Source of the DNA: Rhododendron vialii
Lineage: Eukaryota > Streptophyta > Magnoliopsida > Ericales > Ericaceae
Direction: 5' to 3'
DNA length: 64,000 nucleotides
NCBI RefSeq assembly: GCF_030253575.1
Contig: NC_080561.1
Coordinates: 32,015,564-32,079,563, forward strand
Positions 36,179 through 57,762 of the stretch are shown here, piece after piece. The position numbers and the translations under genes were made by a program. Below the pieces are notes generated by a model that had not been told where the DNA came from, searched no databases, and worked only from the letters and a program-made list of their open reading frames with translations. Every line of letters begins with the position of its first letter. The stretch's first letter is position 1.

Positions 36179-36183
36179 GCTAT

Positions 36184-36877
36184 TGTGGGGGCTCCGTTCC
36201 GAGTGGTTCTTGCTTTCTAAATATGGGTTCGTGATCCTCCCTTAGTTCCTCCCTCTGCCCTGCAAAACAAAACACGACTAAAGACCACACCGGAGGTCCT
36301 CCGGGATGGCCCTCCGGTGCAAGAGTCAGTTTTCTTGCAAAGAGAAGTTAGGAATCAGGAGCTAGGGTTTTCTTTGTGCATACCTTTTCCAAGCAGGCAT
36401 AATGAGATATTTATAGGGAACCTCTTAGCTTGGTCTCCAAGATTGCACCAACGCTCGACACGCGTCGGCTGATGTCACTCTTACGTCACGTTTTAGGGTT
36501 TTGCAACCATTTTTCAGGATGAGCTGGCACCTTCACGTGCCCCCATCATTATCCTCATAACCGTTTGGATGACGTCACGACCATCATCACTGCCATGGCT
36601 ACTGTTCTAACGCAGACGGGCTGGAACGTCGGCCACGCTTCGCTCGGAACCGAGCGTGTTGTGTGACCCCGGCAGCTGTCCAAACGAACGTATTTTCCGG
36701 TCATGCGAGTGCTGGGACTGGAGCGTTTAAGGAAGTAGTAATTAACGGGACCCTCGGCTACGGGGACCCTCGGCTACAGTTGCTGTTCCGAACGTTGAGA
36801 GAAAGATGACTTGGAGTTGAAAAGGGATACTGGATCACGTTCGGAAATAGCTCGAGCCATTTTGCTCGGCCTGCTAC
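36184..36877 (-). repeat. Element A 3' LTR
   Basis: 694 bp. Contains a TATA box on the minus strand at 36405-36415 (CTATAAATATC). A polypurine-type tract GGGTTGAGGGG (minus strand) lies immediately upstream at 36881-36892. Confidence 0.92.
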
Positions 36878-38978
36878 AATAGCCCCTCAACCCATGCCGA
36901 AGCTCTTTACTTGGTATGGGTTGATTTAAGATTTAGCCGAGCTTCATCCGAGGATCTTTTTTCGAACCTGCAACAGATAAATCCGAGCCCCACATAGGAT
37001 GACAGCTGTCGAGAATTTGAACGGGTGTGTTAGTCGAAAGGACGCCTTAGCAGATGAGGAGACGACTGGCGTGAGTAAGGCTTTCAGTTGCCACGTGTCA
37101 CTTTGTGGTTAGCGAGGGGTTCGGCTGTGAAATGATGGGCGGGAAATTCGAAACGCCCCGCTCCATCTATAAGTAATGTCGTAGAAGGAGAGAGAAAGTT
37201 CCTCTGCATTTTCTCTCTCTAACACTTGGAGCTTCTCTCTCTATGACTTCGTTCTAGAGCTTGATTCAGATCCAGATCTTCATTTTCAAACCTCATTTCA
37301 ACAGAAATCTTCAGGTATGTTATGGATTTTTACTGCTTCACTTTTCTCTTTGCCTTTTATGCGTTTTTTCTGGGCTTTTGGGTGATTTTTGGGGTTTTTT
37401 TTTGGTTCTGAATGAACAGTAGAATACTGGGAAGAACGATGATGTTCATCCCTGAACTCAACTAGTTCTTCCGAGCCCCAATAGGATGTTCGGGGCTCCC
37501 TGAACGACTTCTTCTGACGGGGATAAATAACCGAATGGGCCCCAATTTCCTGTTTGGCCGAGCGTAGGGAGACTTCCCAGTAACACCGAACCCATTATAG
37601 GTTAGCTTATGACTCGTGAGCCGATAAGATGAACCGAACTTCCAAATAGTTTTCTTTGCCGACGCAGATTTCAACTGCTTAATACCCTTTTGTTCTTTTC
37701 CTAGGTCTGGCTCACGAGGTCATCGATGTTTCTTCAGACTCGGATTGCTCGGAAACCGAATCCGATCGTCAGTTCATCAGCGAACTTCTTGAGCTGTGTA
37801 GGTTGAGGAGCGACCGAGCGATAGAATCTGCTTTAGCTAGAATGTCGGCGACTTCACCCGTGTCTGATGATTCTAACGCCGAGCGCGATTTTGAGTACGC
37901 CGCGGATGACTTCTTCACGGAGCCTGAGATAAGTTTTTCTCCGGAGACCCAGTCCGAGATCGAGCCATAGGTGGGGCAAGAGGCCAAATCACGGCTTATG
38001 TCAGGAGCCGAAGCTTCGACATCGGCCCCGAGCGATGCCGACCTTTTCGATAAAGGCTTGCTATGCCCTTACGCTCACTATTTCAGTGGCAGTCCTGGGG
38101 AGTATGCAACATTCCGGACGAAGTACAATATTCCCGACGATGTTCTGATTCATAGAGTCAAGAGCACTAAAATTAAAGACCATAGGGATCACCGTCCCGA
38201 GCATATAACCGTGCCCCTAATGGCCATTTGCGAGGCTGGGCTTCGGTTCCCCCTTCACCCCTTCCTTAGGGAGATTCTTTGGAGATTTAGTTTGGCACCT
38301 CATCAACTCGCGATCAACAGTTACCGAATCATCATGTCGGTAATTGCCTTGATCGAGAGCCAAGATCTGGACTTCAGGCCGACGGACCTCTTTTTTACAT
38401 ACACCATGTCTCGTCATGGTAAATCTAGCCGTCGGTACCTTACAACTCGACCTAAAAAGAGTCCTCTGATCGAAGGCTTATCTGACACGGATAAATGGGC
38501 CGATTTTTATCTTGAAGTTCATGGGAACTATGAATTTGGCGACGGTCTGCATCGGTACACAGTTCCTAAGGTTAAGGACACGAGAGATACTACCGAACCG
38601 CTCATTTTCTATTTTAGTAAATATTCATTCGGCTTTTCTTTTGTTGCTTAACGCTTTCATTCCTGCCATCTTTTGTTTGCAGAGCTCGGTCCTATATTAA
38701 AGGGACTTAATACTAACTCTCGAGAGAAAGCCTGCGACACACTTCTCGCCCAAGCTTGCCGATACGCTCCAACCTTGCTCGACTATATACCCTCATACAA
38801 GGGTGTGCTGAGAAGGAAAGAGAAGGGTAAAGAGGCCGAACCAGGAAGGAAAAAAACAGGCGCCTCCAAGGCTACCGGAGCTTCCAAAAAGGGGGAGGCT
38901 TCAAACGTTGAAGGCGTTCGGCAAAAGAGGCAGCAAGGAGTACGCTTGCCGAAGATTGGATTTACAGCTGAGGAGTGG

Positions 38979-39833
38979 TGTAGGGAGGTATTCCCGAACA
39001 GGTGCAAAATGTTCCCGAGCACGGTCAACAAAGGGTCAACACACTGTGGACCACTGATATGAGAAGTCAATGGTCCAGAGAGGTTGTACGATTCTCGGTA
39101 CAATAACATGAGACGTTATTGGACCAGATACAAGGAAAATGACATGAGATGCCACTGTTTATAGAAACTTGTTCGGCAAGAGAGAGCCGAACAAGTGGAG
39201 AGTTCCTTACAAAGGATATGGTTCAAATTGTTTCCTTAGGACCAGTAACACGTGAGGTAATTGGTCCAGGCCATCTGTTCGGCCATGAGATGGCCGAACA
39301 GAGAGAGAAGTCCTATTTGAGGGAACATTCTCGAAGGGTCCAGAATCACTGATATTCCGTTAAAGGATGAGATCCCAAGAATATAGGATCTAAGAAAGAT
39401 ACCCAACGAATATGGGATGTTCGGCTTGATATGGAAAAGAGTCCTACAAGGATTAAGGTAATGAACCGATAAAGGAAACGAGAATCATTGATATCCTGGG
39501 ATTCCTATACGAGTTAGGAATTCTAGGGCAACACGGATGCTTGGCCAGCAAGCATACGCAAATCTATAAATAAGAGGTAAACCTAGAGGAGAGAGGTACG
39601 CAATACACTGCATTCTTATTGCTTTCCTACTGATAATCAGGGTTTGATTGCTAGTACGTGATACTAACAAAGGCATCGGAGGGCCTTTGCCACGAGAGGC
39701 AAAGGTGCGCTCACTCCTTGTCTGTTTTGCAGGATAAGGGTTTCTCTGACGAATTAGGGTTACGTTCAAGAGGCACGTGGAGCCGCTGCATTCCAGTGCT
39801 GTTCAAAGCACTACTTGAATTTATCCACCTACA
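38979..39833 (+). repeat. Element B 5' LTR
   Basis: Begins TGTAGGGAGG and ends CCACCTACA. Contains three perfect short hairpins: 39168-39195 (stem CTTGTTCGGC), 39275-39301 (stem CTGTTCGGCCAT, loop GAG) and 39684-39705 (stem CCTTTGCC, loop ACGAGA). Confidence 0.95.
39564..39572 (+). promoter_or_regulatory. TATA box of element B (5' LTR)
   Basis: CTATAAATA in the second half of the LTR, placing transcription start near 39600. The same box is at 49479-49487 in the 3' LTR. Confidence 0.7.
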
Positions 39834-39834
39834 A

Positions 39835-39853
39835 TTGGCGCCGTCTGTGGGAA
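39835..39853 (+). other. Element B primer-binding site
   Basis: TTGGCGCCGTCTGTGGGAA starts one base after the LTR, the position where a tRNA 3' end primes minus-strand synthesis. This string is common in plant Tat-type elements; I have not assigned the tRNA. Confidence 0.75.
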
Positions 39854-39881
39854 ACGAAAGAGTTCCCTTTGAAATACGACC

Positions 39882-42800
39882 ATGGTGGAAGTAGAGCCAG
39901 CAACGCCACACGACCCAAAGGATGTGTTAATTGGAGGAGGGGATAAGTCTCCACCCGGGGCTCCGAGAAAGCCCGAAGGAGGACACAAGAGGACCACGAG
40001 TAAGGGCCACCCCCTTACTATCCACGGCAACTCCAGAAATAGAGATGGAGAGACGGCATCGAAGTCCACGAGAAGGACTAAATCCCATCGAGGGGATGAA
40101 TCGATTGCACACTCCAGGAGTATATACCGTAGCGAAGACGTTCTTGATAAAAAGAGACAAGAAATCGAGGAGTATGCTCGTTTGATCAAAAAACGAGAAC
40201 ATGAGATCAGAGAATTAGAGAAAATCAGAGAACATCCGGAGGACTCTGGACTATCTCGAAGAAATTCTAGAGGTAGTGAATACGCTCTGGTGCAGTATCA
40301 AAAGGCTCCTTCGCGAGGAAGGAGGAGCAGAAGCAGAAGTCTGACCCCGAGGCGACATAAGACTTCTCCACGAAAAGGGAGGAGCAGGATCCGAACACCC
40401 GAGCGAAGGAGGATATCTCCAAGAAAGAGGAGAAGCAGAGGTCGGAGTTCTACCCCCGAAGAAGAAGGGAGTAGAAAACATCATAGGGACAGGTACGAGA
40501 GACCTGATTCCGATTGGGAACGAATTAGGTCCAAGAAAGGACCAGAGGATGAAGCCATGACTGCACGAGAAGCAGCACGAAAAGCACTGCAGAATATAGC
40601 ATCTTCCCCTTTTGCAAGAAAGTTACAGGAGGCTAGATTGCCGACCAGGGTAAAGCACGGGACATTCATTCTCTATGAGACAGATGCTGATGCCGTGACC
40701 CATATACAGCATTACCAGCAAGCGATGTTTATGCATGAAGGGGATGATGCAATCATGTGCAAAATGTTCCCGTCGAGTTTGGGGAAGGTTGCTCTGTCCT
40801 GGTTCCACAAACTAGGCTCGCGCTCCATCCGAACATGGGTGCAATTGGCCGAGGAATTCACTGCACGGTTCTTGACGATCAGGAAAGCTCCCAAAACCGT
40901 TGAGAGTCTTTCTTTTATGAAACAAGGAGAGGACGAGCCGATCAGGACTTATGCAAAGAAGTACTGGGAAACCTTCAACGAAATTGAAGGATGTAGTGAA
41001 GAGTACGCAATAGCCACGTTCAAAACGGGTTTACCTGTTCGGGGGGAACTGCGTAAGTCTCTAAACATGAGTCCCGTGCAGACATTGGCAAAATTAATGG
41101 AGAGGATTGAGCAGCACGCCAGGAACGAGGATGACATCCTACGAGAGGATGGAAAGTTGGCCGCCGAGCAAGTAAAGGGGCCTATAAAGAAAGTTGACAA
41201 GCCAGAGCCCAAAACTTATCGTGAAAGGAAAGATTATGGGCAGGCGAAGAAAGAGCAGTACAAGGATAAACAAGCCCCGGATCCCAAGTCATTCTTTTCA
41301 ATAAACACGGTTTGGAAAGAGCCCATTTACAGGATTCTTTATCGAATAAAGAATCAACCATACTTCAAATGGCCCCCAACTCTTGGTGGGAATAAAGATG
41401 CGAAACGTGCTACGAACCAACACTGCAGTTACCATAAGGATTGGGGTCACATGACAGAGGACTGTGAGATGTTTAAACGACATCTTGATGATTTGGTCTC
41501 ACGAGGTTACCTCAAAGAATTTATCCAAGAGGACTCCAAGGATAAAGACAAGGCAATGGAATTGGATTATGAACAAAATCCAAAAGGGATAATCCATATG
41601 ATACATGGATTGGCCGAACCTTATACGAGAAATGAGGTGAGATTGCTTCAGAGACGAGTGAAACATGACCAGCATGTAATGCAGTTGGGGAAGAAAAGAG
41701 GTCGCAACGAAGGGGCAAGCAACGAGGGCATAGTTTTTACTGATGAAGATCTGGGAGGAGTCCAGGTACCTCACAATGATGCTTTGGTCATAACCCTACG
41801 AGTTGGGGAATATGATATGGAGATAATCCTGGTAGATTCAGGAAGTTGCACCGAAGTGCTATACTACGATGCGTTCAAGAAACTGGGGCTCACACAAGAA
41901 GATTTGGTACAATCAGCAACTCCACTGGTCGGATTTGGAGCAGGAGCAGTTTGGCCGTTAGGCAAGGTAACTCTGCCTGTTCGGGCTGGGACAGTGGTGC
42001 TACGAACCGACTTCTTAGTGGTGGATGTACCGTCTTCCTATAACGTGATTATAGGAAGGACATGGTTGCACAAGATGAGGGCAGTCTCTTCAACTTTCCA
42101 TCAGATGGTAAAGTTCCCAGGGTCTAATGGAATTGAGCACATCAAAGGTAACCAAAAGATAGCTCAACAATGTTTGGTATCCATCATTAAAAGAGTCCAT
42201 AATGCCCACCATATTAATGCTGTGGAAACTCCGGATCTGCCAACCATTGAGGATATCGGAAAAGACCCAACCGAGAGGGTGGTTGAGGATTTGAAGAAAA
42301 CACTGATCAAAGAGACTGATCCAGATAGGTACTTTCTAATTGGGGAATCATTGCTAGAAGAGGAAGAGAACGAACTGATTAGTTTTTTGAAAACTTATGT
42401 CGATGTATTTGCTTGGACACCAGAGGAGATGCCTGGGGTGAATGCAGATGTAATCTGCCATCATTTGAATATAGATCCACAGCATAAACCGGTCATTCAA
42501 AAGAAACGAAGGGCAGCCGTACAGCACGTTGACGCTGTAATTGAAGAAGTGGATCACTTGTTGGAAGCCAGGGCAATAAGGGAAGTTTATTATCCAGAGT
42601 GGCTATCAAATACCGTTGTCGTCAAGAAAAAGAACGGAAAATGGCGCGTATGTGTTGACTTCACAGATTTAAACAAGGCGTGTCCTAAAGACAGTTTTCC
42701 TCTTCCAAGGATTGACCAGTTGGTTGATGCAACAGCGGGATATGGACGGATGAGTTTTCTCGATGCATATCGAGGATACCATCAAATTGCAATGTTTGGG

Positions 42801-45554
42801 CCGGATCAGGAGAAGACGTCTTTTATTACACCACGAGGGTTGTACTGTTATAATGTCATGCCTTTTGGATTGAAGAATGCAGGGGCAACGTATCAGAGAC
42901 TGGCAACCATCATGTTCAGAAAATTGCTCGGCAAAACTATGGAGGTTTACATAGATGACATGGTGGTGAAAAGTAAGTCTGGGCAAGGCCATATTGCAGA
43001 TTTGAGAGAAGCTTTCGAGATTTTGAGGAAATACAAGTTGAAACTCAACGCCTCGAAGTGTGCGTTTGGAGTCGGCTCTGGAAAGTTTTTGGGCCATCTT
43101 GTAACTCTAAGGGGAATAGAGGCAAATCCCGACCAGATAAAAGCCTTACAGAATCTGGAAAGTCCTCGGACAACGAAAGAAGTCCAACGTTTAACTGGGA
43201 TGGCAGCAGCTCTTAATCGATTTATTAGCCGATCAAGTGACAAGTGCAGACCTTTCTTTCAGTTATTGAAAAAAAGGGAAGGGTTTGAATGGGGAGCAGA
43301 ATGTGAACAAGCCTTTCAGGATCTAAAGGGATATTTGGCCTCTCCTCCCCTTCTTTCGACTCCAGAAACAGGTGAGTCTCTGATTTTATATCTAGCTGTT
43401 TCTGAGCATGCTGTAAGTGCAGTACTTTTAAGGGATAAGGGATCCGAGCAAATCCCAGTCTATTATGTGAGCAAAACTTTGTTAGATGCCGAAACAAAGT
43501 ATTTGCCCCTCGAGAAATTGGTCCTAGCATTAAGGACAGCAACTAGAAAATTGCCACATTATTTCCAGAGCCATAAAGTTGTGGTCTACACCGAGTTCCC
43601 ATTAAAATCATTGCTCCGAAAGGCAGATTTCTCGGGAAGGATCTCAACTTGGTCCGTTGAGTTGAGCCAATATGAAATCGACTATCAGCCGCGCACAGCA
43701 ATCAAAGGCCAGGTGTTGGCAGATTTTGTGGCAGAGTTCTCACCTACGGTTGCACCTCTGCCTCCTACGAGAAAGGAGTGTGAAGCAAAGTCTCCTGTAA
43801 CGAAGAAACAGGCGTTAGCCGAACAAGATCCCCTGGAATGGAAGCTGTTTGTTGATGGGTCAGCTTGCAACACCGGTTCAGGTATTGGAGTTGTGCTTTT
43901 ACCCCCTGAAGGGTCAATGTTAGAATTATCTGTTCGGCTAGGGTTCAATGCATCAAATAATGTGGCAGAGTATGAGGCACTCTTAGCTGGTTTGAGAAGT
44001 GCAAAAACCCTAAAAGCTGAACGAGTTAGGGTGTATTCTGATTCACAGCTCGTGGTCCATCAACTGTCCGGGCAATATGAAACCCGGAGCGAGAAGATGG
44101 CGGCATATGTACAGGTGACCAGAGATCTACTTGATACCTTCGAAAGGGTGTATATTGAACAGATAAGTTCTGGGAAGAATGCTCATGCAGATTCATTGGC
44201 ATGGTTAGCCGCAGCTGTGTCATCTGAGTTTAAAAGAAAAATAGCCGTAGAGTATTTGGCTGAGCCGAGCATTGGCAGAAGTGTAGAGATGGTCTTGGAC
44301 GTGAACCAAGGACCAAGTTGGATGGACCCAATAGTGGAGTTTTTACGAGATGAAGTACTCCCTTTGGACAAAAAGGAGGCACATAAAATCAGGACCAAAT
44401 CTGCTCGGTTCTGGTTATCCCCAGAGGGAAAACTATATAGAAAGTCTTTTACAGGACCCTACTTGCTTTGTGTGCATCCTGAGATGGTGCAAAAGTTCCT
44501 CCACGAAATTCACGAGGGGACTTGTGGAAGCCATGCTGGTGGTCGGTCCATAGCCCACCGAGCAATCACCCAAGGGTATTGGTGGCCGTACATGCAAGAA
44601 GATGCTAAGGTGTACGTAAAAATTTGTGAGAAGTGTCAGAAGTTTTCACCAATGATTCGAACACCAGCCGAGGACCTGGTGCCGCTAACAAGTCCCTGGC
44701 CGTTTGCTCAATGGGGAATGGACATAGTGGGTCCACTACACAAAGCAACTGGGAATCGAAAATTCCTATTAGTTGCAACAGATTACTTCACTAAATGGAT
44801 TGAGGCTGAGCCGTTGGCCAAGATTACTGAACCTATGATAGAAAGGTTTGTGTGGAAAAGCATCATAACTCGCTTTGGGGTACCCTATTCGTTGATTACA
44901 GACAATGGGTCGCAATTTCAGAAAAAATTCAAAACTTTCTGTGCCCAGTATGGGATAAGAAATTATTACTCGACTCCAGCCTACCCACAAAGCAACGGAC
45001 AAGCAGAGGCTTCGAATAAAACGATCCTTGATGGGATTAAGAAACGTTTGGATAAAGCAAAGGGGAAATGGCCCGATGAATTGCCATTGGTCCTATGGGC
45101 ATACCGAACAACGCCTAGGAGGTCTACGGGAGAGACCCCCTATTCATTGGCATATGGAACGGAGGCTGTTATTCCATTGGAAGTAGGTCTGCCGACCAAC
45201 AGGACCACTTTGGTTGAAAGTGGAGGAAATGACAGAGCCTTGAAGATTGAGTTAGACTTTGCCGAGGAACGACGAGAACGGGCCTTGGTGCATTTGGCCT
45301 CATACCAAGAGCAGCTCATCAAAAGTTATAATAAGAATGTACACCCACGAGAGTTTGGTGTTGGAGACCTTGTGCTACGAAAAGTGCTCGGCAATACTAA
45401 AGTGGCTAATGAGGGAAAGCTAGGGGCAAATTGGGAAGGCCCATATCGAGTTACAGAAATCGCGGGCATTGGGGCTTATCGATTGGCGGACTTGGACGGG
45501 AACCCAGTGCCAAGACCTTGGAATGTCCATAATCTGAGAAAGTTTTTTATATGA
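39882..45554 (+). CDS. Element B gag-pol polyprotein, 1,890 codons, intact
   Basis: One unbroken frame. Residues 1-260 are basic and charged, with Arg-Ser repeats. About 265-415 is the retrotransposon gag domain (CKMFPSSLGKVALSWFHKLG). About 513-529 is a zinc-knuckle-like CSYHKDWGHMTEDC. The protease active site VDSGS is near 651. The reverse transcriptase runs about 900-1080, with YIDD at about 1023. An RT-linked RNase H spans about 1160-1260, and a second, archaeal-type RNase H starts at KLFVDGSACNTGSG (about 1320) and runs to 1445. Integrase: HHCC finger about 1541-1588, then catalytic D (GMDIVGP), D (TDNGSQF) and E (NGQAEASNK). A GPY/F-like WEGPYRV lies near the end. No chromodomain. ATG is in a strong context (ACCATGG). 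Two RNase H domains and no chromodomain define Tat. Cleavage into mature proteins is by the internal protease. Confidence 0.95.
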   Translation: MVEVEPATPHDPKDVLIGGGDKSPPGAPRKPEGGHKRTTSKGHPLTIHGNSRNRDGETASKSTRRTKSHRGDESIAHSRSIYRSEDVLDKKRQEIEEYARLIKKREHEIRELEKIREHPEDSGLSRRNSRGSEYALVQYQKAPSRGRRSRSRSLTPRRHKTSPRKGRSRIRTPERRRISPRKRRSRGRSSTPEEEGSRKHHRDRYERPDSDWERIRSKKGPEDEAMTAREAARKALQNIASSPFARKLQEARLPTRVKHGTFILYETDADAVTHIQHYQQAMFMHEGDDAIMCKMFPSSLGKVALSWFHKLGSRSIRTWVQLAEEFTARFLTIRKAPKTVESLSFMKQGEDEPIRTYAKKYWETFNEIEGCSEEYAIATFKTGLPVRGELRKSLNMSPVQTLAKLMERIEQHARNEDDILREDGKLAAEQVKGPIKKVDKPEPKTYRERKDYGQAKKEQYKDKQAPDPKSFFSINTVWKEPIYRILYRIKNQPYFKWPPTLGGNKDAKRATNQHCSYHKDWGHMTEDCEMFKRHLDDLVSRGYLKEFIQEDSKDKDKAMELDYEQNPKGIIHMIHGLAEPYTRNEVRLLQRRVKHDQHVMQLGKKRGRNEGASNEGIVFTDEDLGGVQVPHNDALVITLRVGEYDMEIILVDSGSCTEVLYYDAFKKLGLTQEDLVQSATPLVGFGAGAVWPLGKVTLPVRAGTVVLRTDFLVVDVPSSYNVIIGRTWLHKMRAVSSTFHQMVKFPGSNGIEHIKGNQKIAQQCLVSIIKRVHNAHHINAVETPDLPTIEDIGKDPTERVVEDLKKTLIKETDPDRYFLIGESLLEEEENELISFLKTYVDVFAWTPEEMPGVNADVICHHLNIDPQHKPVIQKKRRAAVQHVDAVIEEVDHLLEARAIREVYYPEWLSNTVVVKKKNGKWRVCVDFTDLNKACPKDSFPLPRIDQLVDATAGYGRMSFLDAYRGYHQIAMFGPDQEKTSFITPRGLYCYNVMPFGLKNAGATYQRLATIMFRKLLGKTMEVYIDDMVVKSKSGQGHIADLREAFEILRKYKLKLNASKCAFGVGSGKFLGHLVTLRGIEANPDQIKALQNLESPRTTKEVQRLTGMAAALNRFISRSSDKCRPFFQLLKKREGFEWGAECEQAFQDLKGYLASPPLLSTPETGESLILYLAVSEHAVSAVLLRDKGSEQIPVYYVSKTLLDAETKYLPLEKLVLALRTATRKLPHYFQSHKVVVYTEFPLKSLLRKADFSGRISTWSVELSQYEIDYQPRTAIKGQVLADFVAEFSPTVAPLPPTRKECEAKSPVTKKQALAEQDPLEWKLFVDGSACNTGSGIGVVLLPPEGSMLELSVRLGFNASNNVAEYEALLAGLRSAKTLKAERVRVYSDSQLVVHQLSGQYETRSEKMAAYVQVTRDLLDTFERVYIEQISSGKNAHADSLAWLAAAVSSEFKRKIAVEYLAEPSIGRSVEMVLDVNQGPSWMDPIVEFLRDEVLPLDKKEAHKIRTKSARFWLSPEGKLYRKSFTGPYLLCVHPEMVQKFLHEIHEGTCGSHAGGRSIAHRAITQGYWWPYMQEDAKVYVKICEKCQKFSPMIRTPAEDLVPLTSPWPFAQWGMDIVGPLHKATGNRKFLLVATDYFTKWIEAEPLAKITEPMIERFVWKSIITRFGVPYSLITDNGSQFQKKFKTFCAQYGIRNYYSTPAYPQSNGQAEASNKTILDGIKKRLDKAKGKWPDELPLVLWAYRTTPRRSTGETPYSLAYGTEAVIPLEVGLPTNRTTLVESGGNDRALKIELDFAEERRERALVHLASYQEQLIKSYNKNVHPREFGVGDLVLRKVLGNTKVANEGKLGANWEGPYRVTEIAGIGAYRLADLDGNPVPRPWNVHNLRKFFI

Positions 45555-45583
45555 ATAAATTTTTATTTTTGCACATCGTGATT

Positions 45584-46176
45584 GTGTGAGAGTTACGAAT
45601 AAAACTCTCTTATGTTCTAGTTCTGTTATTTTAGCTGCACGGGGTACGAATAACGCCCTCTTGAGCTCTATAGCTTATGAATAAAGTCGCCTTTTTTTTA
45701 TAACTATTGTTGTTTCTGGTATTTGTTTTAAATACGAATTACAAAAGTAAAATTCCCTCATTCGTATTGGGGAGCAGGGTATAGGATATCCATTTAAGTA
45801 CGTGAAACTTAAACATATCCATTTAAGTACGTGAAACTTAAAACAAAAGTTTAAGTACGTGAAACTTAAACTCAAGTTTAAGTACGAGACACTTGAACGC
45901 AAACGCAAGTACGAAACACTTGTGTGATGTTCTAAGTACGTGACACTTAGAGTATGAGAACACTTGTTTGGAATTTAAGCCATGAAATATCCAAGTACGA
46001 GAAACTTAACATTGCATACGAATACATGCCTACAAGCATACGAATATATGCACAAACAGTCCACAGCATACGAAAATATGCACAAACTTGGAAAGCATAC
46101 GAATATATGCATAAAGTACGTGACACTTTAGCCGATTTAAAGTACGAAACAACTTACATAAGTACGAAATACTTAA
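45584..46176 (+). repeat. Array of short hairpins with varying stems and ACG-type loops
   Basis: At least eleven stems of 5-9 bp, each enclosing a 6-8 nt loop starting ACG or CGA. Examples: GAGAGTT/AACTCTC (45588-45609), TTTAAGT/ACTTAAA (45793-45813 and 45822-45842), AGTTTAAGT/ACTTAAACT (45848-45872), CAAGT/ACTTG (45906-45922), TCTAAGT/ACTTAGA (45931-45951), GCATA/TATGC (46036-46051, 46066-46081 and 46095-46110), TAAAGT/ACTTTA (46112-46130) and TAAGT/ACTTA (46159-46175). Weaker ones lie near 45880, 45992 and 46014. It sits in the spacer where gag-pol and the antisense ORF converge. Confidence 0.8.
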
Positions 46177-46254
46177 AACATCCATGATAGAAATATGTGG
46201 AACAAGTATCTTGACAGGAATCATTCAAAACACAGATATAAAGAAAGGCAGAGC

Positions 46255-48319
46255 TCATTCATCTTCAGTGAGATCTTGCACAGAAGAAGGAGCAATTACA
46301 GGAGCTACTGGTGCAATCACATCATCAGTGGCAATTTCCTCTCCACGTTGACCACCACTGGCTTCCTTTTGGCCAGAGTTAGTCATATCACTCTGAGGCT
46401 CCACTTCGGTAACAGGAGGCTCCGCTGTCTGCAAGACCTGTTCTTCATCTCCCTCTTCAACAATTTCCTCCTGATCACCAGCTGCTGCGCTTGGAAGCTC
46501 GATATTGGTCCAAAGTGGAGATGACTCAGGAATCTCTGCTTTTTCAAGGCAGGCCCTCCAAGACGCCACCCAAACTTGATCCTGAATTCCAGGCATCTGG
46601 TTTGTGTAGCTCTCTGTGGCAACTTTGATTCCTTCGTTATATCCCTTTTCAAAGGCAGCCTTGGCTTCATTCTGGGACGTCTCGAGCTCCTTCAAAGTCT
46701 GGGCAAGACTGTCCTCAGTCCCCTTCAACTGTCCTTTCAGGCCATCTGCAACCCCCTGGGCCTGGTTCCTTTCTCTCTCAAGCCTGATGATGGTACGTTG
46801 GAGCTTGGAGTTTTCACTGACAAGTTTTGCTCGTTGGGGCTCTGATTGGCTAAGTTTTTGAGCCATGGCCACCATTTTTTGCATCACCTGGAAACATTCA
46901 AAACAATTGTGATAAACATAACTGTTAAAGTTCTGTGTACACTATGATCACAAAAAGAAATTTTACCTTGGCGTTGTGGGACATGAAGGAACTGAGAAGA
47001 TTGTCTGGAGACATTGCAACTTCTTTTTGCATGTCCCCAGGCAACAAAAAGGCCTGGGACAATGCAAGGGCAGTCCCTTCGGTCTCGACAGTGTCCCGGG
47101 CAGTGATAGCTCGGTTCCCATGAGAGAAGGAGGGAGCCCATATTGGAGCAGGAGACGAGGAGGAAGGTGGGGGTCTTTCTTGAGTTTCCTCCACTCGTTG
47201 ACGTTTCTCACGGTGAAGGGCTTCAATCTCTTCAAGGGAAAATCCTGGGGGAGCATCTGTTTGAGTTTGAGGGCGACAACCACGACCTTGGCCCCGAGCA
47301 GCGCCACGACCTCGACCAGGTATGGTGAGAAGACTCCCTAAATCAATTGGCTGGTTCATTGCTGAAGGTGAAGGCGTGTAACCGCTGGAAGAAGAACTTG
47401 ATGTGGGACTGGAGGCTTCTTCGGCAAGGGGAATTGGTTCGTCGGAGATTGGAGGTGTCCGAGAACGCCTTTCTTCGGAAACAGGTCTTGAAGGACCAGC
47501 CGCTGCAAGGTTGTCCGCTGCTCCGGTACGCCGATCGATAAACCCCCCGTATGACGCTTTGTAACTCAGCAGAACCTGAGCCGCTCTTGCTCGGCCAGCA
47601 AGGTAAGTCCCTTCGCCGTTGAAAGCAAGTGCTCGCTTGATATCAGCTACGTGCACTTGAGGGGTTATGATATTATAACCCCGGTTAATGTTCGAAGCTG
47701 CAGCCGAACAGAGCATAAATAATTAGAAAGCACGAAAAAGCTTTTCCTATGAAAAAGGACAAGGATTTGAAATTAGGGGAAAGCACTAACGTGGGCTCCC
47801 GAATACATGAGGAGCGTGAAAACCAATCACTTGGCCGTCCTCATCTCTGGGTTCGAAGTTGCCCGTGACAATCAGGAAGTCGTCGTCATCCCCTCGAGCA
47901 GAGTCAGGGAGTTCAAGGACAAGCTTCTTCCTAGAATCCCTACTCTTTAAATAATATGTGAGGGCATCCCCGGTTCTAGAGATACTGTATAGATGGTGAA
48001 TATCATACAGGCCTAGCGAAGTCCCTAACATTTGGTTTAAGGTATTTATGCCCATAACTACCCTGAAGAAATTAGCAGAAACCTGCATTGGCGAAAGCCT
48101 GTAATACGCTAAGACTTGGCGGAGCAGAGGGGCTAGGGGAAACCTAACTCCGCCTTCAACGACGGCTACTACTGGAATATGAAGGGTGTCAAAATCGAAG
48201 CTTTCACGAATGGCATCCTCAGGAGCCAAAACGGTAGCTACGTTGTCAGGAATCCCATATCGAGATCTAAAACTAGCCATGGTTTGAGGAGTATTACAAT
48301 GTCTACGAAATCTCCCCAT
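46255..48319 (-). CDS. Element B antisense ORF, three exons, intact
   Basis: Minus-strand gene inside element B, opposite to gag-pol. Exons 48319-47791, 47697-46967 and 46887-46255 join with GT-AG borders to exactly 630 codons plus a stop. Exon 1 begins MGRFRRHCNTPQTMASF and carries the 'putative gypsy type transposon' domain pattern (RFPLAPLLRQVLAYYRLSP). Exon 2 is Ser/Pro/Arg-rich with a Gly-Arg stretch (GRGRGAARGQGRG). Exon 3 starts VMQKMVAMAQKL, is coiled-coil-like, and ends in an acidic tail. The same order of parts is seen in element A's antisense ORF. Such antisense ORFs are known in the Tat lineage; the product has no established role. A start at the ATG at 48319 is my choice; other ATGs lie just upstream and downstream. 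Confidence 0.75.
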
Positions 48320-48879
48320 TACCAGAAAATCTTTTGGGGTTCTTTGAAGTATAAAGAAAGGGGACGATGAAACCCTAACGAAAGATTGTGAACAATCTAC
48401 CAAGAGAAAAAGAGCAGTAAGGAGAGGAATGATGACTTACGAAAAACAGTCGATTGAATCCCTAAAAGCAGAAAGGAGGAGGTCTTGAAATGATGAATAG
48501 AGCTTCAATGGCGGGTAAACCTTGAAATCGCCTCTTTCTGCTGAGGAAGTCTAAGAGAGAGATTGAGATATTTGAAAATGGGACGAAAACCCAAAAATAC
48601 CCCAAAAGTGGGTGGCGTACGTGAAACGTCATCCCAGACGCCGTTTGAGCGTTCCGTTTTCCCATAAACACGTCTGTTCGTATTTAATGAAACGCAATAC
48701 GATGATCGACGCGTGTAAAGGTTAGGGCTAAAAGCCTGTGACGGCCACAAGAAAAGATGATTTTTTCTTAAGCAAAGTGATGAAACATTGCACCAATATG
48801 TGAAATAGGGTGCAGAAACAAAGTGAATTTGTTCGGTTGAAAGCTTTACTCGTCATCTGAGTAAAATATAAACGAGCAA

Positions 48880-48893
48880 AGCTGGGGAGCAAT
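48880..48893 (+). other. Element B polypurine tract region
   Basis: AGCTGGGGAGCAAT directly precedes the 3' LTR; GGGGAG is the likely plus-strand primer. Confidence 0.6.
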
Positions 48894-49748
48894 TGTAGGG
48901 AGGTATTCCCGAACAGGTGCAAAATGTTCCCGAGCACGGTCAACAAAGGGTCAACACACTGTGGACCACTGATATGAGAAGTCAATGGTCCAGAGAGGTT
49001 GTACGATTCTCGGTACAATAACATGAGACGTTATTGGACCAGATACAAGGAAAATGACATGAGATGCCACTGTTTATAGAAACTTGTTCGGCAAGAGAGA
49101 GCCGAACAAGTGGAGAGTTCCTTACAAAGGATATGGTTCAAATTGTTTCCTTAGGACCAGTAACACGTGAGGTAATTAGTCCAGGCCATCTGTTCGGCCA
49201 TGAGATGGCCGAACAGAGAGAGAAGTCCTATTTGAGGGAACATTCTCGAAGGGTCCAGAATCACTGATATTCCGTTAAAGGATGAGATCCCAAGAATATA
49301 GGATCTAAGAAAGATATCCAACGAATATGGGATGTTCGGCTTGATATGGAAAAGAGTCCTACAAGGATTAAGGTAATGAACCGATAAAGGAAACGAGAAT
49401 CCTTGATATCCTGGGATTCCTATACGAGTTAGGAATTCTAGGGCAACACAGATGCTTGGCCAGCAAGCATACGCAAATCTATAAATAAGAGGTAAACCTA
49501 GAGGAGAGAGGTACGCAATACACTGCATTCTTATTGCTTTCCTACTGATAATCAGGGTTTGATTGCTAGTACGTGATACTAACAAAGGCATCGGAGGGCC
49601 TTTGCCACGAGAGGCAAAGGTGCGCTCACTCCTTGTCTGTTTTGCAGGATAAGGGTTTCTCTGACGAATTAGGGTTACGTTCAAGAGGCACGTGGAGCCG
49701 CTGCATTCCAGTGCTGTTCAAAGCACTACTTGAATTTATCCACCTACA
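48894..49748 (+). repeat. Element B 3' LTR
   Basis: 855 bp, same ends and length as the 5' LTR. The four visible differences are at about 49178 (A for G), 49317 (T for C), 49402 (C for A) and 49449 (A for G). Confidence 0.95.
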
Positions 49749-51772
49749 AGTGGCTCACTCCGTTCTCATCCGACGATTTAACCGATCCCGTCGTTGAAGA
49801 CATGTTGAGGAGAAACATCCCTAGGCCAGTCATCCCAACAAAATCGGCTAACCCAGGTCGTGGCCGCGGCTCTGCTGACCAGCAGCTTCAGCAGAAAGAA
49901 AAGAGACAGAAGATATCTGAGGATGTTCTGCCACCGAACGTTTCTCAGTCAGCCCCTTCAAGCATTGCCCAAGCCTCTCCGCCCAAGGAACAAAGGAATC
50001 TTCCCGAACCTCACATCGACCTTACCGACCCTGCGACCGAGGCTGCCGTTCGTCGTCAATTCAGCCCTTCTTACACTATGTCTGACGGCAGAGTCCTGCA
50101 GCTGAGTGATTCCGTTAAGGAAGAACCAAATCTTGCAGTGACGCTCCTAAGGGGTCTAGCTCTTCCGAGAGACTATGATCAAGTGCCGACCGACCTAATC
50201 CCTGGGCTTGGAGACATGTGCTCCCATCTAGTGCAGGTATTACTTGTGCTTAGTTTTTCTATTTGTGATCTTTCCTTTGGAATTTCCTTGTGGTAATCTT
50301 TATTTCCATGTTTTTGATAGGTCGGACAAGCTGCTTTGAAGGCTTACGACAAGGCAACCAAGGTGAGCGCCGAGCGTGAGCGATATAGGTCTGATCGGGA
50401 CTCCTTCCGAACAAAATGGAGGATATCTGATCAGCAGGTTAAGGATTCCGAAGCTGAGTTAGAGAGGCTTCGGAAAGAGCTTACTGATGCTAAGTCCGCT
50501 GCTTTGGCTGCCGAGGCTGAGGTAAAGAAGGTGAAGGAAGATGAGAAGGAAAAACTCAGGATGGCCGACGCTATATGAAGCCGGGATCAACCGAGCTGCC
50601 CTTGAGTACACCCAAATTGCTCACAACATGGTGAACGATGAATTGGAGGCTCGGCTACCTGACTTTTACAGACTGGGCTACAGTACTGGTGCTGATGCAA
50701 TGGCAGGGGTGATGGCTATCCAACCAGAATCAGGGTTCCTAAAACAGCTTCCTGAGCCGGTTGTGCCAGATCTTGACCTTCCATATACCGAAGAGGAATG
50801 CCAGCCTTTGCCGACTGAGGAGGAAGATGAGGAAATGGTCGATGGAGAGAAGAATGCTGAAAGTGCGGATGTTCAAATCGACTGAGATGGACGCGCTCTA
50901 GTCGAATGCCTGTTTGGTGGATGTTTTTTGAATGTTTGGAGAATTTTTCTTAAGTATTTTTTCTTATTTTGAACCTTTGTCTTTTGGGCTGGATGGCGCC
51001 GAACATTAGGTACTTGCCAAGCCAGGTGTAATAGTTTGAAGAGGGACGATATCGAATTATTTACCAAGCCGAGCCTTCTTATGTAGGAGTTTTCTGAATC
51101 TCCAGCTTATATTTCAATGACTTAGTAAAATTTCTCAAATTTGTTACTATAGTGAATATTTCTCTTATGCCTTAGAAATATTTTCTGAGTTTTGGCCGAA
51201 TGTCAAGCAACATTGGCTTGTTTCCAAGGTTTTGATAATTACTCATGATAGCCCCTACTTTGGTGTAAGGCTCGGCTCAAAATGCCAGTCTTATGCCAAG
51301 GTAATAGGTGGAGTAATTGTTTGATGTGGCTATTTAGTTCAAGTCAAATTATGAACGTAGCCGAGCTAAGAACAAACTTTTAAGTTCATTGATTGTTTTG
51401 TGACTGGACGTAAAGTTTGTCCGAACCACGACATGTTTTGCTGCTGGTTGATCCGAACGTAATCGTGAAAAGCTAGAAAGCCGAACTTAACTTTACGAAG
51501 TTTGAACAGTTAAATCGAATATAGATAACATTGATGCTTCAGAAATAGGAAGGACTTCTCATTAAATAAAAGGATGACCAAAACAGGTACAGCATTTTGG
51601 TAAGTGACAAGTAATAAACTTGGAAGGGGATGTGATAGATCGAGACCGAGGAGAAACTTCAAAGGTAAGCCTTCCTGAGGTTTAGGGCGTTCCAGGGGTT
51701 CTCAATTTCACTTCCTTCTTCGTCTTCTAACTTGTATGAGCCATTGCTGACCTCCCTTATCACTCTGTAGGG

Positions 51773-52057
51773 TCATTCCCAATTTGGTTTGAATTTAGTC
51801 TTCTGGTTGGCTCGGACAACCTTCCGCCAGACCCAATCGTCGGTTCTGAACTTCTTAAGCCTTACGCTCCGATTGTAGCCCCGAGCAACTTCCTGTTGAT
51901 AGTTAGCTAATTTGATCTGGGCATCATCCCGCTTTTCTTCGGCCAACATAAGCTCGGTAGCGACTGCATCATTGTTGGTTTCTGGATCAAAAGTTTTAGT
52001 GCGCAGGGTTGGGAACTTGGATTCGAGTGGGATGAAAGCTTCCATGCCGAAAGCCAT
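51773..52057 (-). pseudogene. Element A integrase C-terminal segment
   Basis: Continues the frame of the integrase core segment after a stop: YNRSVRLKKFRTDDWVWRKV and KFKPNWE, equivalent to the region before the GPY motif in element B. Truncated by a stop at 51773. Confidence 0.75.
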
Positions 52058-52213
52058 TGCAAAAGGAGTTTGGCCGGTTGAGCGTCTTGGAGTGGAGCGG
52101 TAGGCCCAAAGGACCCGCGGCAGTTCTTCGGCCCATTTTCCTCGTTTGGAGTCTAGCCGACGCTTGATACCAGCGCATACTGTCTTGTTTGTTGCTTCGG
52201 CCTGACCGTTGCC

Positions 52214-52615
52214 TTAGGGGTAGGATGAGGTTGAATTAAAAAACCTAATTCCGAACTCAGCACAAAGTCCGGTTAACTCTTTACCGACGAATTGGGAGCC
52301 ATTATCCGAAACAATCGCATAAGGCACGCCAAATCGTGTGACGATGTTCCTCCACACGAATTGCCGAACGTCTGTTTCGGTAGTAGTGACTAGTGGTTCG
52401 GCTTCTACCCACTTTGAGAAATAATCCGTTGCAGTTATCAAAAACTTGAAGCCCCCAGGGGCGATTGGAAGTTTGCCAACTATATCCAAGCCCCATTGAG
52501 CAAAGGGCCAATGGCTGGTAATAGGTTTGAGGGATTGAGTGGGCTGCTTTGGTATAAGAGAAAAGAGTTGGCAAGGTTTGCATTTTTTGACTACTTCTTC
52601 ACAATCCTTCTTCAT
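52214..52615 (-). pseudogene. Element A integrase core segment
   Basis: Contains CKPCQLF from the end of the zinc finger, then WGLDIVGKLP (first catalytic Asp), ATDYFSKWVEAEPL and SDNGSQF (second Asp). It ends at a TAA just before the position of the catalytic Glu. It is in a different frame from the upstream RNase H segment, so a frameshift lies between 52616 and 52705. Confidence 0.85.
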
Positions 52616-52704
52616 TCCTTTCCAGTAGTATCCCTGACTTAGAGCTTGTTGACAGAGGGAACACCCGCCGGAGTGACAACCGCAGCTTCCAGAGTGAAGT
52701 TCGG

Positions 52705-53592
52705 TTAAAATAGTTGGGACCTCGTTTGGATGGATGACTCGAAGATATGGCCCTGTGAAGCTTTTTCTGTAAAGTTGGTCGTGCTCAGAGATCCAATAGT
52801 AGGCTGCTTTGCTGCGTACACGGTAGGCCTCCTTTTGTCGGAGGGTAGTGTATCATCTTTGAGGAACGAGACGATTTCATCCATCCAACTAGGGCCGAGG
52901 GAAATGCCGAACACCTCTTCCGAGACTTCGAAGCTTGGCTGGTGGATCTCGCCAAGGCTGATGTGTTTGTATTCGGATGCTTTGCTTGCCGAGGCCAAAC
53001 TTGCAAGAGCATCGGCATGAGCGTTGTTCTCTCTGTTGATCTGTTCGATGTGGAATCCCTTGAACCCTCGGATTAGCTCAAGAGCCGTAGCCTGATACTT
53101 TATCATTCTTGGGTCTTGAGCTTCATAATCACTTATTACTTGATTGACGATCAGCTGAGAGTCACAGAAAACTTGTAGGTCTTCAACTTGTAAATTTGTC
53201 GCGACTCGGAGCCCAGCTAACAGAGCTTCATATTCGGCTTCGTTGTTCGTGGCTAGGAAGTTGATTGTGATAGCACTTTCATGAAGGACGCCACAAGGGT
53301 TTACAAGGACAACCCCTGCACCCGTGCCGTTGCTGTTTGATGCCCCATCAACGTGTAGCTTCCAAACGTCTCCACTGAATAAGTTCCACATTTTTCGAGC
53401 CTCTTGTTGTTCTAGCATTCCATAATTGGGCTTAACCAATGCTTCTTCGTCCGGGCTTCCGGGGGTGAATTCGGCAATGAAGTCTGCCAATACTTGGGCC
53501 TTGATTGCTATTCGAGGCTCAAAGTGGATATCAAAATTTGCTAATTCGACCGCCCACTGAGATACTCTACTTGATAGGTCGGCCTTCCTCAA
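52705..53592 (-). pseudogene. Element A second RNase H and start of integrase
   Basis: Starts with the end of the RT-linked RNase H (ADLSSRVSQWAVELANFDIH), then the Tat-specific RNase H with WKLHVDGASNSNGTGAG, NNEAEYEALLAGLRVA and CDSQLIVNQV. It then breaks up before the integrase finger. Confidence 0.85.
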
Positions 53593-53610
53593 GAGATTTT
53601 TAAGTGGAAA

Positions 53611-54057
53611 CTATGTGAGGACTATGATGGGGTGTTCCTGAAAATAAGGGAGTAATTTCCGAGCAGCTGTAACCAATGCTTGGAGAAGCTTCTCCAGTGG
53701 CAGATATCTGGTTTGTGCTGGGAGCAAGGTTTGGCTAGTAAAGTAGATTGGTTGGTCTTCAAGGCCTTCCCGTCGGATAAGTGCCGAGCTCACAGCATGT
53801 GGAGAGACAGCTAAGTAGAGATGGAGAGTTTCAAAAGCTTTTGGTTTGATGAGAAGCGGGGCCAAACATAGGTAAGATTTCAGCTCGGTTAGGGCTGCGT
53901 CGCAATCTTCCGTCCACTTAAAACTTTGTCGGCTTTGCTTTTTTAGAGTTTGGAAGAAAACGTGGCATTTATCTGACAAGCGGCTAATGAACCTGTTGAG
54001 GGCCGCTGCCATCCCTGTAAGCTTTTGAATTTCCCGAGGAGTTGATGGTGGTTTCAA
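53611..54057 (-). pseudogene. Element A RT thumb and RT-linked RNase H
   Basis: Same frame as the RT segment, separated only by a TAG at 54061. Contains REIQKLTGMAAALNRFISR and LYLAVSPHAVSSALIRREG. Ends at another TAG at 53611. Confidence 0.85.
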
Positions 54058-54060
54058 TTG

Positions 54061-54663
54061 CTAAATAGCTGAGATCTGGTTCGGATCTGCTTCGATTCCA
54101 CGCCGAGTGACAAGATAACCGAGAAACTTCCCGGAGCTAACTCTGAAGGCGCATTTGTCGGCATTTAGCCGTAACTTGTACTTCTTCAGAATTGCAAAGA
54201 CTTCGGCAAGGTGAGAGAGGTGGTTCTCGGCTTTGAGACTTTTGACTACCATATCGTCAATATAGGCTTCCATGATCTCTCTAATGAGCATACCGAACAA
54301 TAGGTATACCATTCTTTGAAATGTGGCCCCCGCGTTCTTAAGACCGAACGGCATAACCAAGTAGCAAAAGAGGCCCCTGGGGGTGATGAATGCCGTCTTC
54401 TCCATGTCGTCGGGGTCCATGGCTATCTGGTGGTAACCTCTGTAGGCATCCAAAAAACTTAGCCGAGCATGACCTGCTGTTGCATCTACTAGTTGATCTA
54501 TCTTTGGGAGGGGTAAACAGTCCTTCGGACAAGCATCATTCAAGTTGGTGTAGTCCACGCAGACCCTCCATTTTCCATTCTTCTTCTTTACCACCACGGG
54601 GTTTGCAAGCCAAGTGGGGTATTGCACTTCTTTGATGGCACCTGTCTCGAGGAGTTTACCCAC
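54061..54663 (-). pseudogene. Element A reverse transcriptase core
   Basis: Contains [47 protein letters not shown] and the catalytic YIDD in [11 protein letters not shown]. Protein-level similarity to element B is clear but the families differ. Confidence 0.9.
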
Positions 54664-54702
54664 TTCTTCGTTTACTGCTTCGGCATGAATTGTGGCCGAA
54701 CA

Positions 54703-55833
54703 TCAAGGCTTTTGAATCACCGGTTTTGCCGATTTTGAAACGTTGAGTGAGTGCTGGATGAGCTTCGGGTCGATGCCTGGCATATCGTACGGCGTCCAAG
54801 TAAAGACTTCAATGTTGCTTTTTAGGAACTGAAACGTTTCTTCACTCTCGGCTTTGGGCAGACCGGCGCCGAGCATGAAATACCGTGATGCATCCTCGTT
54901 GAGTGGGAATTTGATAAGATCTTCAATGGATTTTTCTTCAGGAAGAGATCCGACGTCCTCGAGAACCGGTTTGTCAGGGACTTCAACCCAATGTACTCGT
55001 TTGAAGCGTGATGTCTTTCCGATGGCCGAGACATAACATTGTCTAGCTTGTAATTGGTCTCCGAACAGATCTTGTTTGCCGTGAGCGCCGATGTACCTGA
55101 CCACCTGGTGGTAGGTTGAGGCGACGGCTTTTATTGGATGGAGCCAATTTTGGCCAAGGATTGCGTTGTATGGGCTTGGGGCGTCCACGACGACGAACTC
55201 CAAATTAGAAGCAACCGAGCCCGTAACAACGGGGAGGGTAATCCTATCGAGAGGCCAAACGAGAGTTCCACTAAATCCAATTAAGGGAACTTTCGCTGGG
55301 ACTAGGCATGACTCTGGGATTCCGAGCTCCTTGAAGAGGGATAAGTACATTACTTCGGCCGAGCTTCCTTGGTCTACAAGCACCTTTTTGACGGAGTGAG
55401 TCGAGATTTGCACCGTGACCACCAATGCGTCGCTATGGGGTGTTTGGATTCGTTGAAGATCTTGCTTGGTGAAAGAAATTGACCAGGGACGCTCAAGCGT
55501 CTTCATCCGTTTAGAAGCACGATTGACAAAAAAGATTTGGGTTGCCTTCTGAGCTTTGTCAAGCTCCAAACGAAGCTGTTTTGCTGCTTCCTTTGTGGTT
55601 GGTCCGTGGATAACGTTAATTACTCCTCCCGGACGGGGAATGGGATTTTGTCCACCGGCGTTCGGCTGTCTCCTCAGCGTTTTTGTCCAGTCAATATGAT
55701 CATCGAGAAGTCCCTGAGCCGCTAGATTTTCCAAAAGTGCTTTATATGGAGCGCAAGCCGTGGTGTAATGCCCGAGCTTGTTGTGGTACGAGCATCTCTT
55801 CCGACTGTTATTATTGCCTTCTTCCGTGTTCAA
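54703..55833 (-). pseudogene. Element A zinc-knuckle and protease segment
   Basis: Begins with a CSYHNKLGHYTTAC zinc-knuckle-like motif. The protease active site is VLVDQGSSAEVMY, with Gln in place of the Ser seen in B's VDSGS, so the D-S/T-G triad is altered (DQG). Ends at a TGA at 54703. Confidence 0.85.
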
Positions 55834-56064
55834 CTTGGGAGGGTTTGGCTAGACAAAGAACGGTTCCCTCTCTAACGTACGGAGGAGGAAATAAATTGGT
55901 TCTTTAAAAACGGTGGTTTCAGCTATATAGTCATGAGCTTTAGGACCCTTTTTGTCTGCCATCTTGACTGTGTTGACCTGCTTCTTCGGCTGGACTGCGA
56001 CCACAGGCTTTGGGGGTGCGATTTGGGGCGTGGGGATATGAAGGCTTTGAGGTGCGGTTGAGTT

Positions 56065-56742: not shown

Positions 56743-56976
56743 TAAATCATGCTGACGTTGGGATCCCCTCTCTCTCTTCTCTATGGGGACCCTTTTATGG
56801 TCCTTTTCTGGAAGATTTTCAGTATGATAGACCCTTCGTTGGCTAGGACGATCGTCCTGCCGAACGACGACACTTACACTCCTCTCACAGTGAAGTTTTC
56901 GAGCACTTTTCGAGTTTGTTGTTCGCCGATCATAGGCTTTTTCCCAAGGGACTTCATTATGTTCAATGTGGTAGCT

Positions 56977-57642: not shown

Positions 57643-57742
57643 TGTTTAGGAGGAGGTTGGTAGAGATCTAGAGGAGTGAAGTTTTAGGGATAGAAGATGT
57701 GGTCGACGCGGAGGAGCCGCCGTGGATCTGAAAAACAATGAT

Positions 57743-57762
57743 TCACGTCAGGTTCACCAAAT
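57743..57762 (-). other. Element A primer-binding site region
   Basis: Minus strand directly after the LTR end reads ATTTGGTGAACCTGACGTGA. The position fits a primer-binding site; I have not matched it to a tRNA. Confidence 0.5.

Follow-up and report, generated by a model that had tools for sequence, protein, structure and literature searches.

Why should the short spacer between two converging reading frames of a plant retrotransposon be filled with hairpins whose stems differ while their loops stay nearly the same? Such a spacer lies in the window analyzed here, a stretch of 64,000 nucleotides from Rhododendron vialii to which all positions refer. A sequence-only reading had taken the paired changes of its stems as a sign of selection on structure, and had proposed shared 3′ ends of the opposing transcripts, protein-binding sites or packaging signals as functions.

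The element and its spacer array

The spacer belongs to element B, an LTR retrotransposon at 38979–49748 (Table 1). Its LTRs, of about 855 bp each, appear as an 861-bp direct repeat of 99.4% identity, with five differences, one of them past the LTR end. The element is flanked on both sides by the target-site duplication AGTGG, its PBS is of the TGGCGCCGTCTGTGGGA type, and a TATA-like box is located in the LTR at 39565. By eye, the N-terminus of its Gag (about 40290–40560, + strand) is rich in Arg, Ser and Lys and resembles an RS domain. The antisense ORF at 47789–48403 matched PF04195 (TRP28) with an E-value of 2e-5 and 25.1 bits, just under the 26.2-bit cutoff, and the 3.3 kb from pol to the 3′ LTR (45555–48893) fall within the 2,933–6,566 bp given for this region of Retand elements in the available part of PMC11963269. 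Element B is contained in element A, a gypsy element that runs the other way and has LTR-like repeats near 36182–36878 and 57838–58465. A 77-bp tandem duplication (57759–57912) lies at the edge of the right-hand LTR-like repeat, and tandem repeats of about 305 bp, which have direct and inverted relatives at 72–89% identity, occupy 33399–34277 and 34668–35271, outside both elements.

Every stem first listed for the spacer was found: GAGAGTT at 45588, TTTAAGT at 45793 and 45822, AGTTTAAGT at 45848, CAAGT at 45906, TCTAAGT at 45931, GCATA at 46036, 46066 and 46095, TAAAGT at 46112 and TAAGT at 46159. Seven ACGWRA heptaloops in the spacer sit on a perfect stem of 5 bp or more, while 2000 dinucleotide shuffles gave a mean of 0.00 and a maximum of 1. 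As a whole it also folds better than shuffled sequence (z −2.5 for the sense and −2.4 for the antisense strand, with only 20 shuffles each). Part of the spacer is, however, an ordinary tandem duplication with a period of 27–29 bp, which bears on the covariation. Pairs flanking ACGWRA are Watson-Crick in 83.6% of cases against 73.8% after shuffling of the arms (p 0.006, 11 sites), and with a looser motif in 66.7% against 50.2%, a value reached in 0 of 2000 shuffles (15 sites); the excess is nevertheless modest because of the duplication, and the spacer alone is for this reason weaker evidence of covariation than first claimed. In the window and 20 other spacers, 25 distinct heptaloop sequences use only three inner stems, counting heptaloops with a perfect inner 5 bp and leaving out the GCATA type.

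Table 1. Features of element B, in window coordinates.
Feature	Position	Strand	Remarks
5′ LTR	38979–39833	+	hairpin-bearing; TG...CA ends
U3 hairpin GACCACTGAT-ATGAGAA-GTCAATGGTC	39049–39075	+	one internal mismatch, unpaired in window and 19 copies
U3 hairpin CAATAAC-ATGAGAC-GTTATTG	39101–39121	+	loop also ACGAGAC in other copies
U3 hairpin GACCAGTAAC-ACGTGAG-GTAATTGGTC	39240–39266	+	
U3 hairpin, 11-bp stem, loop ATGAGAT	39274–39302	+	
U3 hairpin, loop TACGAGT	39501–39521	+	outer pair in 20 aligned sequences: A-T 8, T-A 7, unpaired 5
Hairpin 3′ of TATA-like box	39648–39670	+	loops in 20 copies: ACGTGAT 11, ACGAAAT 8, CCGTGAT 1
LTR hairpin CCTTTGCC-ACGAGA-GGCAAAGG, 6-nt loop	39684–39705	+	stem intact in 18/20 copies
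Hairpin GGGAA-ACGAAAGAG-TTCCC, 9-nt loop	39849–39867	+	3′ edge of PBS
gag-pol ORF, intact, 1890 aa	39882–45554	+	Pfam gag, RVT_1, RNase H, integrase
Coding hairpin, loop CCGAGAA	39958–39974	+	
Coding hairpin, loop ACGAGAA	40063–40079	+	fully paired in 20/20 copies; partly broken in sister family
Coding hairpin, loop ACGAGAG	40490–40506	+	fully paired in 17/20 copies, other three with a G-U pair
Coding hairpin, 4-bp stem, loop ACGAGAA	40561–40575	+	ACGGGAA in 18/20 copies
Coding hairpin CCTTCA-ACGAAAT-TGAAGG	40972–40990	+	sister family CTTTCA-ACGAGAT-TGAAAG, compensatory
Coding hairpin, loop (A/T)CGAG	41135–41151	+	one mismatch in sister family
Coding hairpin, one G-U pair	41618–41638	+	closing pair U-A here, U-G in L098, C-G in L099, compensatory
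Coding hairpin CTTCCTATA-ACGTGAT-TATAGGAAG, 9-bp stem	42034–42058	+	all Watson-Crick in 5/20 copies; 15/20 with one or two G-U pairs, two of these also with an A-C mismatch
Coding hairpin, loop ACGAGAA	43762–43778	+	fully paired in 19/20 copies; 4 bp left in sister family
Coding hairpin, loop ACGTGAA	44294–44310	+	
Coding hairpin, loop ACGGGAG	45121–45137	+	
Dense hairpin array	45588–46175	+	between gag-pol and antisense ORFs
Antisense ORFs, 210, 263 and 205 aa	46255–48403	−	
Hairpin AAAGC-ACGAAAAA-GCTTT, 8-nt loop	47727–47744	+	in gap between two antisense ORFs
Hairpin GGGTGGCGT-ACGTGAA-ACGTCATCC, two G-U pairs	48610–48634	+	outside antisense ORFs
3′ LTR	48894–49748		copy of 5′ LTR

A shared heptaloop along the sense strand

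The spacer array is the densest part of an element-wide hairpin set, most of the evidence coming from the members outside the spacer. This gives no support to shared 3′ ends of converging transcripts, as each LTR and the length of gag-pol, remote from the junction, bear similar hairpins. The shared loop is 7 nt long, A-Y-G-N-R-A-N and mostly ACGWRA, and is carried on stems of 5 to 11 bp with unrelated sequences. Using a fixed rule (loop [ACT][CT]GNRA, loop length 5–8, perfect stem of at least 5 bp, range 38979–48893), we found 20 hairpins on the sense strand, distributed over the LTR, gag-pol, the spacer and the 3′ region, and 0 on the other strand. A hand-extended list, which admits G-U pairs, short stems and the GCATA type, comprises 33 hairpins, and further weaker candidates exist; this list and the sets used for the third-codon, sister-family and wobble tests were hand-picked from the window sequence.

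In the LTR, in coding sequence and in the spacer alike, loops and stems are non-random and specific to the sense strand. A motif-free search for over-represented loop-initial 3-mers, run on hairpins whose stems have 5 bp or more and whose loops measure 5–8 nt, placed ACG at the top on the sense strand of 36182–50300 (20 of 205 sites, p 4e-14). ACG was also first without the spacer, in 36182–45554, which includes the 5′ LTR and gag-pol (10 of 131, p 4e-7), and it lay outside the four top 3-mers on the antisense strand, in a stretch of element A (50300–58465) and in the flanks. Within gag-pol, nine hairpins bear the motif on a perfect stem of 5 bp or more, eight of them with heptaloops; the number rises once G-U pairs or stems of 4 bp are admitted. 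When synonymous codons were permuted, which keeps both the protein and the codon use, the eight loose-motif heptaloop hairpins (stem of at least 5 bp) compared with means of 0.13 (300 shuffles) and 0.20 (200 shuffles) and a maximum of 2, and the six that satisfy the strict motif with 0.01–0.03. On the antisense strand of gag-pol the count of motif heptaloop hairpins with such stems is 0.

Pairing around the motif gave the same picture with all sites taken and none chosen by its stem. At the 24 ACGWRA sites of the LTR and gag-pol, 55% of the five flanking pairs are Watson-Crick, compared with 27.6% (sd 4.1) after arm shuffling, and of 319 motifs built alike, ACGWRA ranks first in flanking pairing. 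Pairing at ACGWRA is at chance level in 33 kb of flank (29 and 20 sites) and only weakly raised in the region of the antisense ORFs (6 sites, p 0.05); motif heptaloop hairpins with stems of 5 bp or more are absent from both strands of 46255–48893. In gag-pol the motif is enriched, with 19 occurrences where 9.3 would be expected. Its complement was counted 0 times against 2.2 and 0 against 2.7 expected (p 0.10 and 0.06, the gag-pol value of 0 against 2.2 not being significant), and avoidance of the complementary motif is suggestive only.

A repeated peptide in the coding sequence is ruled out because the loops fall in all three reading frames. Loop–loop kissing was rejected as well, since hairpins with complementary loops and stems of at least 5 bp are absent from gag-pol, the LTR, the spacer and the antisense-ORF region. 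General folding along the whole gene likewise lacked support, gag-pol having a mean z of −0.32, near that of shuffled sequence; the LTR is strongly folded (z −2.03). Gag-pol hairpins with stems of at least 6 bp number 27 against 12.4 expected, and without those having YGNR loops 16 against 10.0, which is within the shuffled range. The LTR and gag-pol hairpins of the list have a mean predicted stem pairing of 0.82 in the sense RNA; pairing is low for some, among them those at 39648 (0.02) and 44294 (0.24), and the spacer mean is only 0.48. The antisense strands of the hairpins are predicted to pair as well. Strong perfect hairpins lacking the consensus loop, with stems of 11, 8 and 10 bp, are located at 39167–39196, 39999–40019 and 41333–41355.

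Conservation in copies and related families

We searched the genome (532.6 Mb, 13 contigs) with the spacer and obtained 55 matches from 40 scored candidates. Twenty spacers (L018–L037) were retained, 17 of which, together with the window, make up the spacer alignment (L019, L020 and L033 omitted). The 20 copies referred to below are gag, pol and LTR pieces of 18 spacer copies (all but L019 and L020) and of two further places. They were picked for divergence among the spacer matches, near-identical ones being passed over, and are 93–98% identical to the window in gag-pol and 86–93% in the LTR; the LTR alignment contains 19 of the 20 LTR pieces (the partial L097 omitted) and the window. One copy of the family, L104:1–8001, has two strict motif hairpins left in the spacer and nine in gag-pol, and partial spacer matches resembling its own occur at five other places. 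The notion that this subfamily consists of non-autonomous copies was dropped, as L104 carries gag and pol.

Third-codon positions in the stems vary at 4 of 38 sites, compared with 608 of 1835 elsewhere (Fisher p 0.0014, footprint permutation p 0.0016), and with a few more hairpins included the figures are 5 of 45 and 605 of 1823. Non-motif hairpins have no such deficit (29/98 vs 583/1755). The stem deficit loses significance when only fourfold sites are taken (3/15 vs 277/776, p 0.16) and when all codon positions are pooled (14/102 vs 1090/5510, p 0.08). Loop variation stays mostly inside the consensus (ACGTGAT/ACGAAAT, ATGAGAC/ACGAGAC), the exceptions, such as ACA, being mostly found in single copies. 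For the LTR set, the covariation score is 0.046 against 0.040 in shuffles (1 of 500 as high), and pairs with double changes number 4 against 3.0 (148 of 500 as high); formal covariation is weak here because the stems hardly vary. Distinct mismatch states in the stems are about equally G-U (27) and A-C (20), with no preference for RNA over DNA.

The same design is present in a sister family (family C), whose copies L098 and L099 are 79% identical to element B over gag-pol. Each has seven loose-motif heptaloop hairpins in gag-pol against a null of 0.16–0.18, and in both ACG is the top loop, on the sense strand only (p 1e-13 and 4e-12). Six of the nine core coding hairpins are paired in L098, one via a G-U pair; in the sister family the stems at 40063, 41135 and 43762 are either shorter or interrupted. 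Stem pairs are unchanged in L098 in 45 of 51 cases, compared with 4956 of 8024 background pairs at like spacing, and in the stem at 40972 a C-G pair of element B is U-A in the sister family, both sides being altered. Both sister LTRs have a hairpin with 10-nt arms and the same loop in a stretch that cannot be aligned with element B; in L105 it reads GTTACCAAAC-ACGTGAT-GTTTGGGAAC. By these comparisons the hairpins appear conserved at third-codon positions, compensated in a few places and common to the sister family. Together with the codon and arm shuffles, this strongly supports the original suggestion of selection on structure, in which the loop stays constant and the stems change.

Two other families behave differently. 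L101 belongs to the element A family, L102 and L103 to a third related one. Over the 7.4–7.9 kb around gag-pol (LTRs excluded), both strands of all three lack motif heptaloop hairpins with stems of 5 bp or more, and their sense-strand hairpin frequency is 0.0018–0.0041, compared with 0.010–0.013 in copies of B and C. Element A in the window has one ACCATG-ACGAGA-CATGGT hairpin with a 6-nt loop (38403–38420, minus strand, sense for A), which may be due to chance, and some weaker hairpin candidates. The Gag proteins of the hairpin-less families are 32–37% identical to that of B, their zinc knuckle is CSYHNELGHYTTAC in place of CSYHKDWGHMTEDC, and the first 260 residues of Gag contain 7 and 10 lysines as against 22 in B. 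In the few families covered, the presence of the hairpins coincides with the type of Gag, with only two bearing and two hairpin-less families, which also differ everywhere else. Searches of the genome with P0043, P0121 and P0006 found at least 73, 85 and 88 places, respectively, with no further family among the matches listed; intact-length frames among the listed places are mostly of 1893 or 1895–1899 aa, as in families B and C. IMG/VR yielded no relative by reverse transcriptase or integrase, and four PBS matches there came with neither polyprotein matches nor motif hairpins. Five distant gypsy-like loci in GTDB genome contigs had no motif hairpins, and a tblastn search of plasmids returned five records, all below 60% identity.

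What may read the loops

The constant loop, the changing stems, the single orientation, the occurrence in coding and non-coding sequence alike and the tie to particular families match the selection that a loop-reading protein would exert. Protein-binding sites or packaging signals, both putative, are the functions first suggested that fit best. We propose that the hairpins are a repeated loop-recognised signal through which Gag would bind and package the genomic RNA, a reading to which we give a little under an even chance. The heptaloop A-Y-G-N-R-A-N would be the recognised part, with the stem only presenting it; the loops would act in the genomic RNA and be read by the Gag (nucleocapsid) of the element itself, which, by binding many loops along the RNA, would select and condense it into the virus-like particle. 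The hairpins at 39049–39521, upstream of the TATA-like box, would come to lie near the 3′ end of the RNA, those at 39648–39867 at its 5′ end and all others between, so that the whole genomic RNA may be decorated with them. We prefer Gag as the reader because the presence of the hairpins goes with the Gag type in four families and because of the analogy with dispersed packaging signals.

A host RNA-binding protein could read the loops instead, and the element would employ it to have its unspliced RNA exported from the nucleus, for translation or localisation, or to control splicing. Everything in the sequence that speaks for a loop-recognised sense-strand signal fits such a protein equally; the loop has a GNRA-type core, and Rfam covariance models gave no match at E ≤ 1 on either strand of 38900–49800. 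Against it, the two related families live in the same host and have no such hairpin in three gag-pol stretches. Since these families share the host proteins, a general host factor would not be needed by every such element, and we regard this explanation as unlikely, if still a serious one. Less probable is that the hairpins act in DNA, as single-stranded cDNA or cruciforms read by the putative TRP28 product of the antisense ORF or by the integration complex. Strand-specific loops would suit single-stranded cDNA too, the wobble counts are neutral, and TRP28 is probably able to bind DNA (Vicient, 2025; PMC11963269, available part); yet element A also has a TRP28-like ORF (37971–38648, 27.8 bits, above the cutoff) while motif heptaloop hairpins are absent from the copy of its family, and several coding hairpins have stems of only 5 bp, weak for cruciform extrusion. 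We think it quite improbable that the hairpins protect or tune the RNA (small-RNA silencing, nucleases, translation) through structure, with the loop as a stable GNRA-like cap: the loop does contain G-N-R-A and the high predicted pairing would agree, but stability needs no A-Y before GNRA, no 7-nt loop and no sense-strand enrichment of the motif, and gag-pol folds much like shuffled sequence. A neutral process, in which tandem duplication and template-switch correction of near-palindromes yield perfect stems without selection, would suit the duplicated part of the spacer but leaves unexplained the same loop on unrelated coding stems, the single strand, the third-codon conservation and the recurrence in the sister family, and is very improbable.

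On a wider reading, a plant LTR-retrotransposon lineage would have evolved its own RNA address code, a protein-recognised heptaloop A-Y-G-N-R-A-N at twenty to thirty-odd sites, on free stems and within codons too; we advance this claim tentatively. How LTR retrotransposons select their own RNA is poorly defined, and a strict, countable loop signal found in two families and not in two related ones of the same genome raises the question of which protein reads it and whether it marks RNA for packaging. Within the open-licence literature of PubMed Central, where the searches showed no account of hairpins of this kind, it would be the first packaging system of an LTR retrotransposon to be encoded by loops at multiple sites. 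The locus is in any case a natural example, and an unusually clear one, of signals that are dispersed through coding sequence and keep the loop fixed while the stems are free.

Among known systems, the retroviral psi is a compact 5′ region. Both psi and the Ty3 structures would resemble element B in being structured RNA that is possibly bound by Gag, but neither is known as a repeated constant-loop hairpin. For Ty3, the available part of one report states that both UTRs and POL are necessary for RNA localisation and packaging, and that the cis-acting packaging sequences are ‘not precisely defined’ (PMC11381356). Retand (Tat) elements share with element B the architecture, an antisense ORF that is putatively TRP28-like in element B, and the repeats between pol and the 3′ LTR; the available text of the Retand paper contains no mention of ‘hairpin’ or ‘stem-loop’, and element B has hairpins in gag-pol and the LTRs too (PMC11963269). 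A further likeness is with hepatitis B virus, for which multiple dispersed packaging signals with -RGAG- loops are described in the part of the report available (PMC7612645). There, as in element B, stem-loops with a short shared loop motif are dispersed along the RNA, and RGAG resembles the [CT]GAGA core of our loops. Element B, a plant LTR retrotransposon, differs in that a single strand of it carries 20 or more heptaloops with one consensus. It displays two hallmarks of packaging signals, multiple dispersed stem-loops and a common loop motif, recognition of which is putative, and the multiple degenerate packaging signals of some RNA viruses and of hepatitis B virus may well serve as the model for its hairpins.
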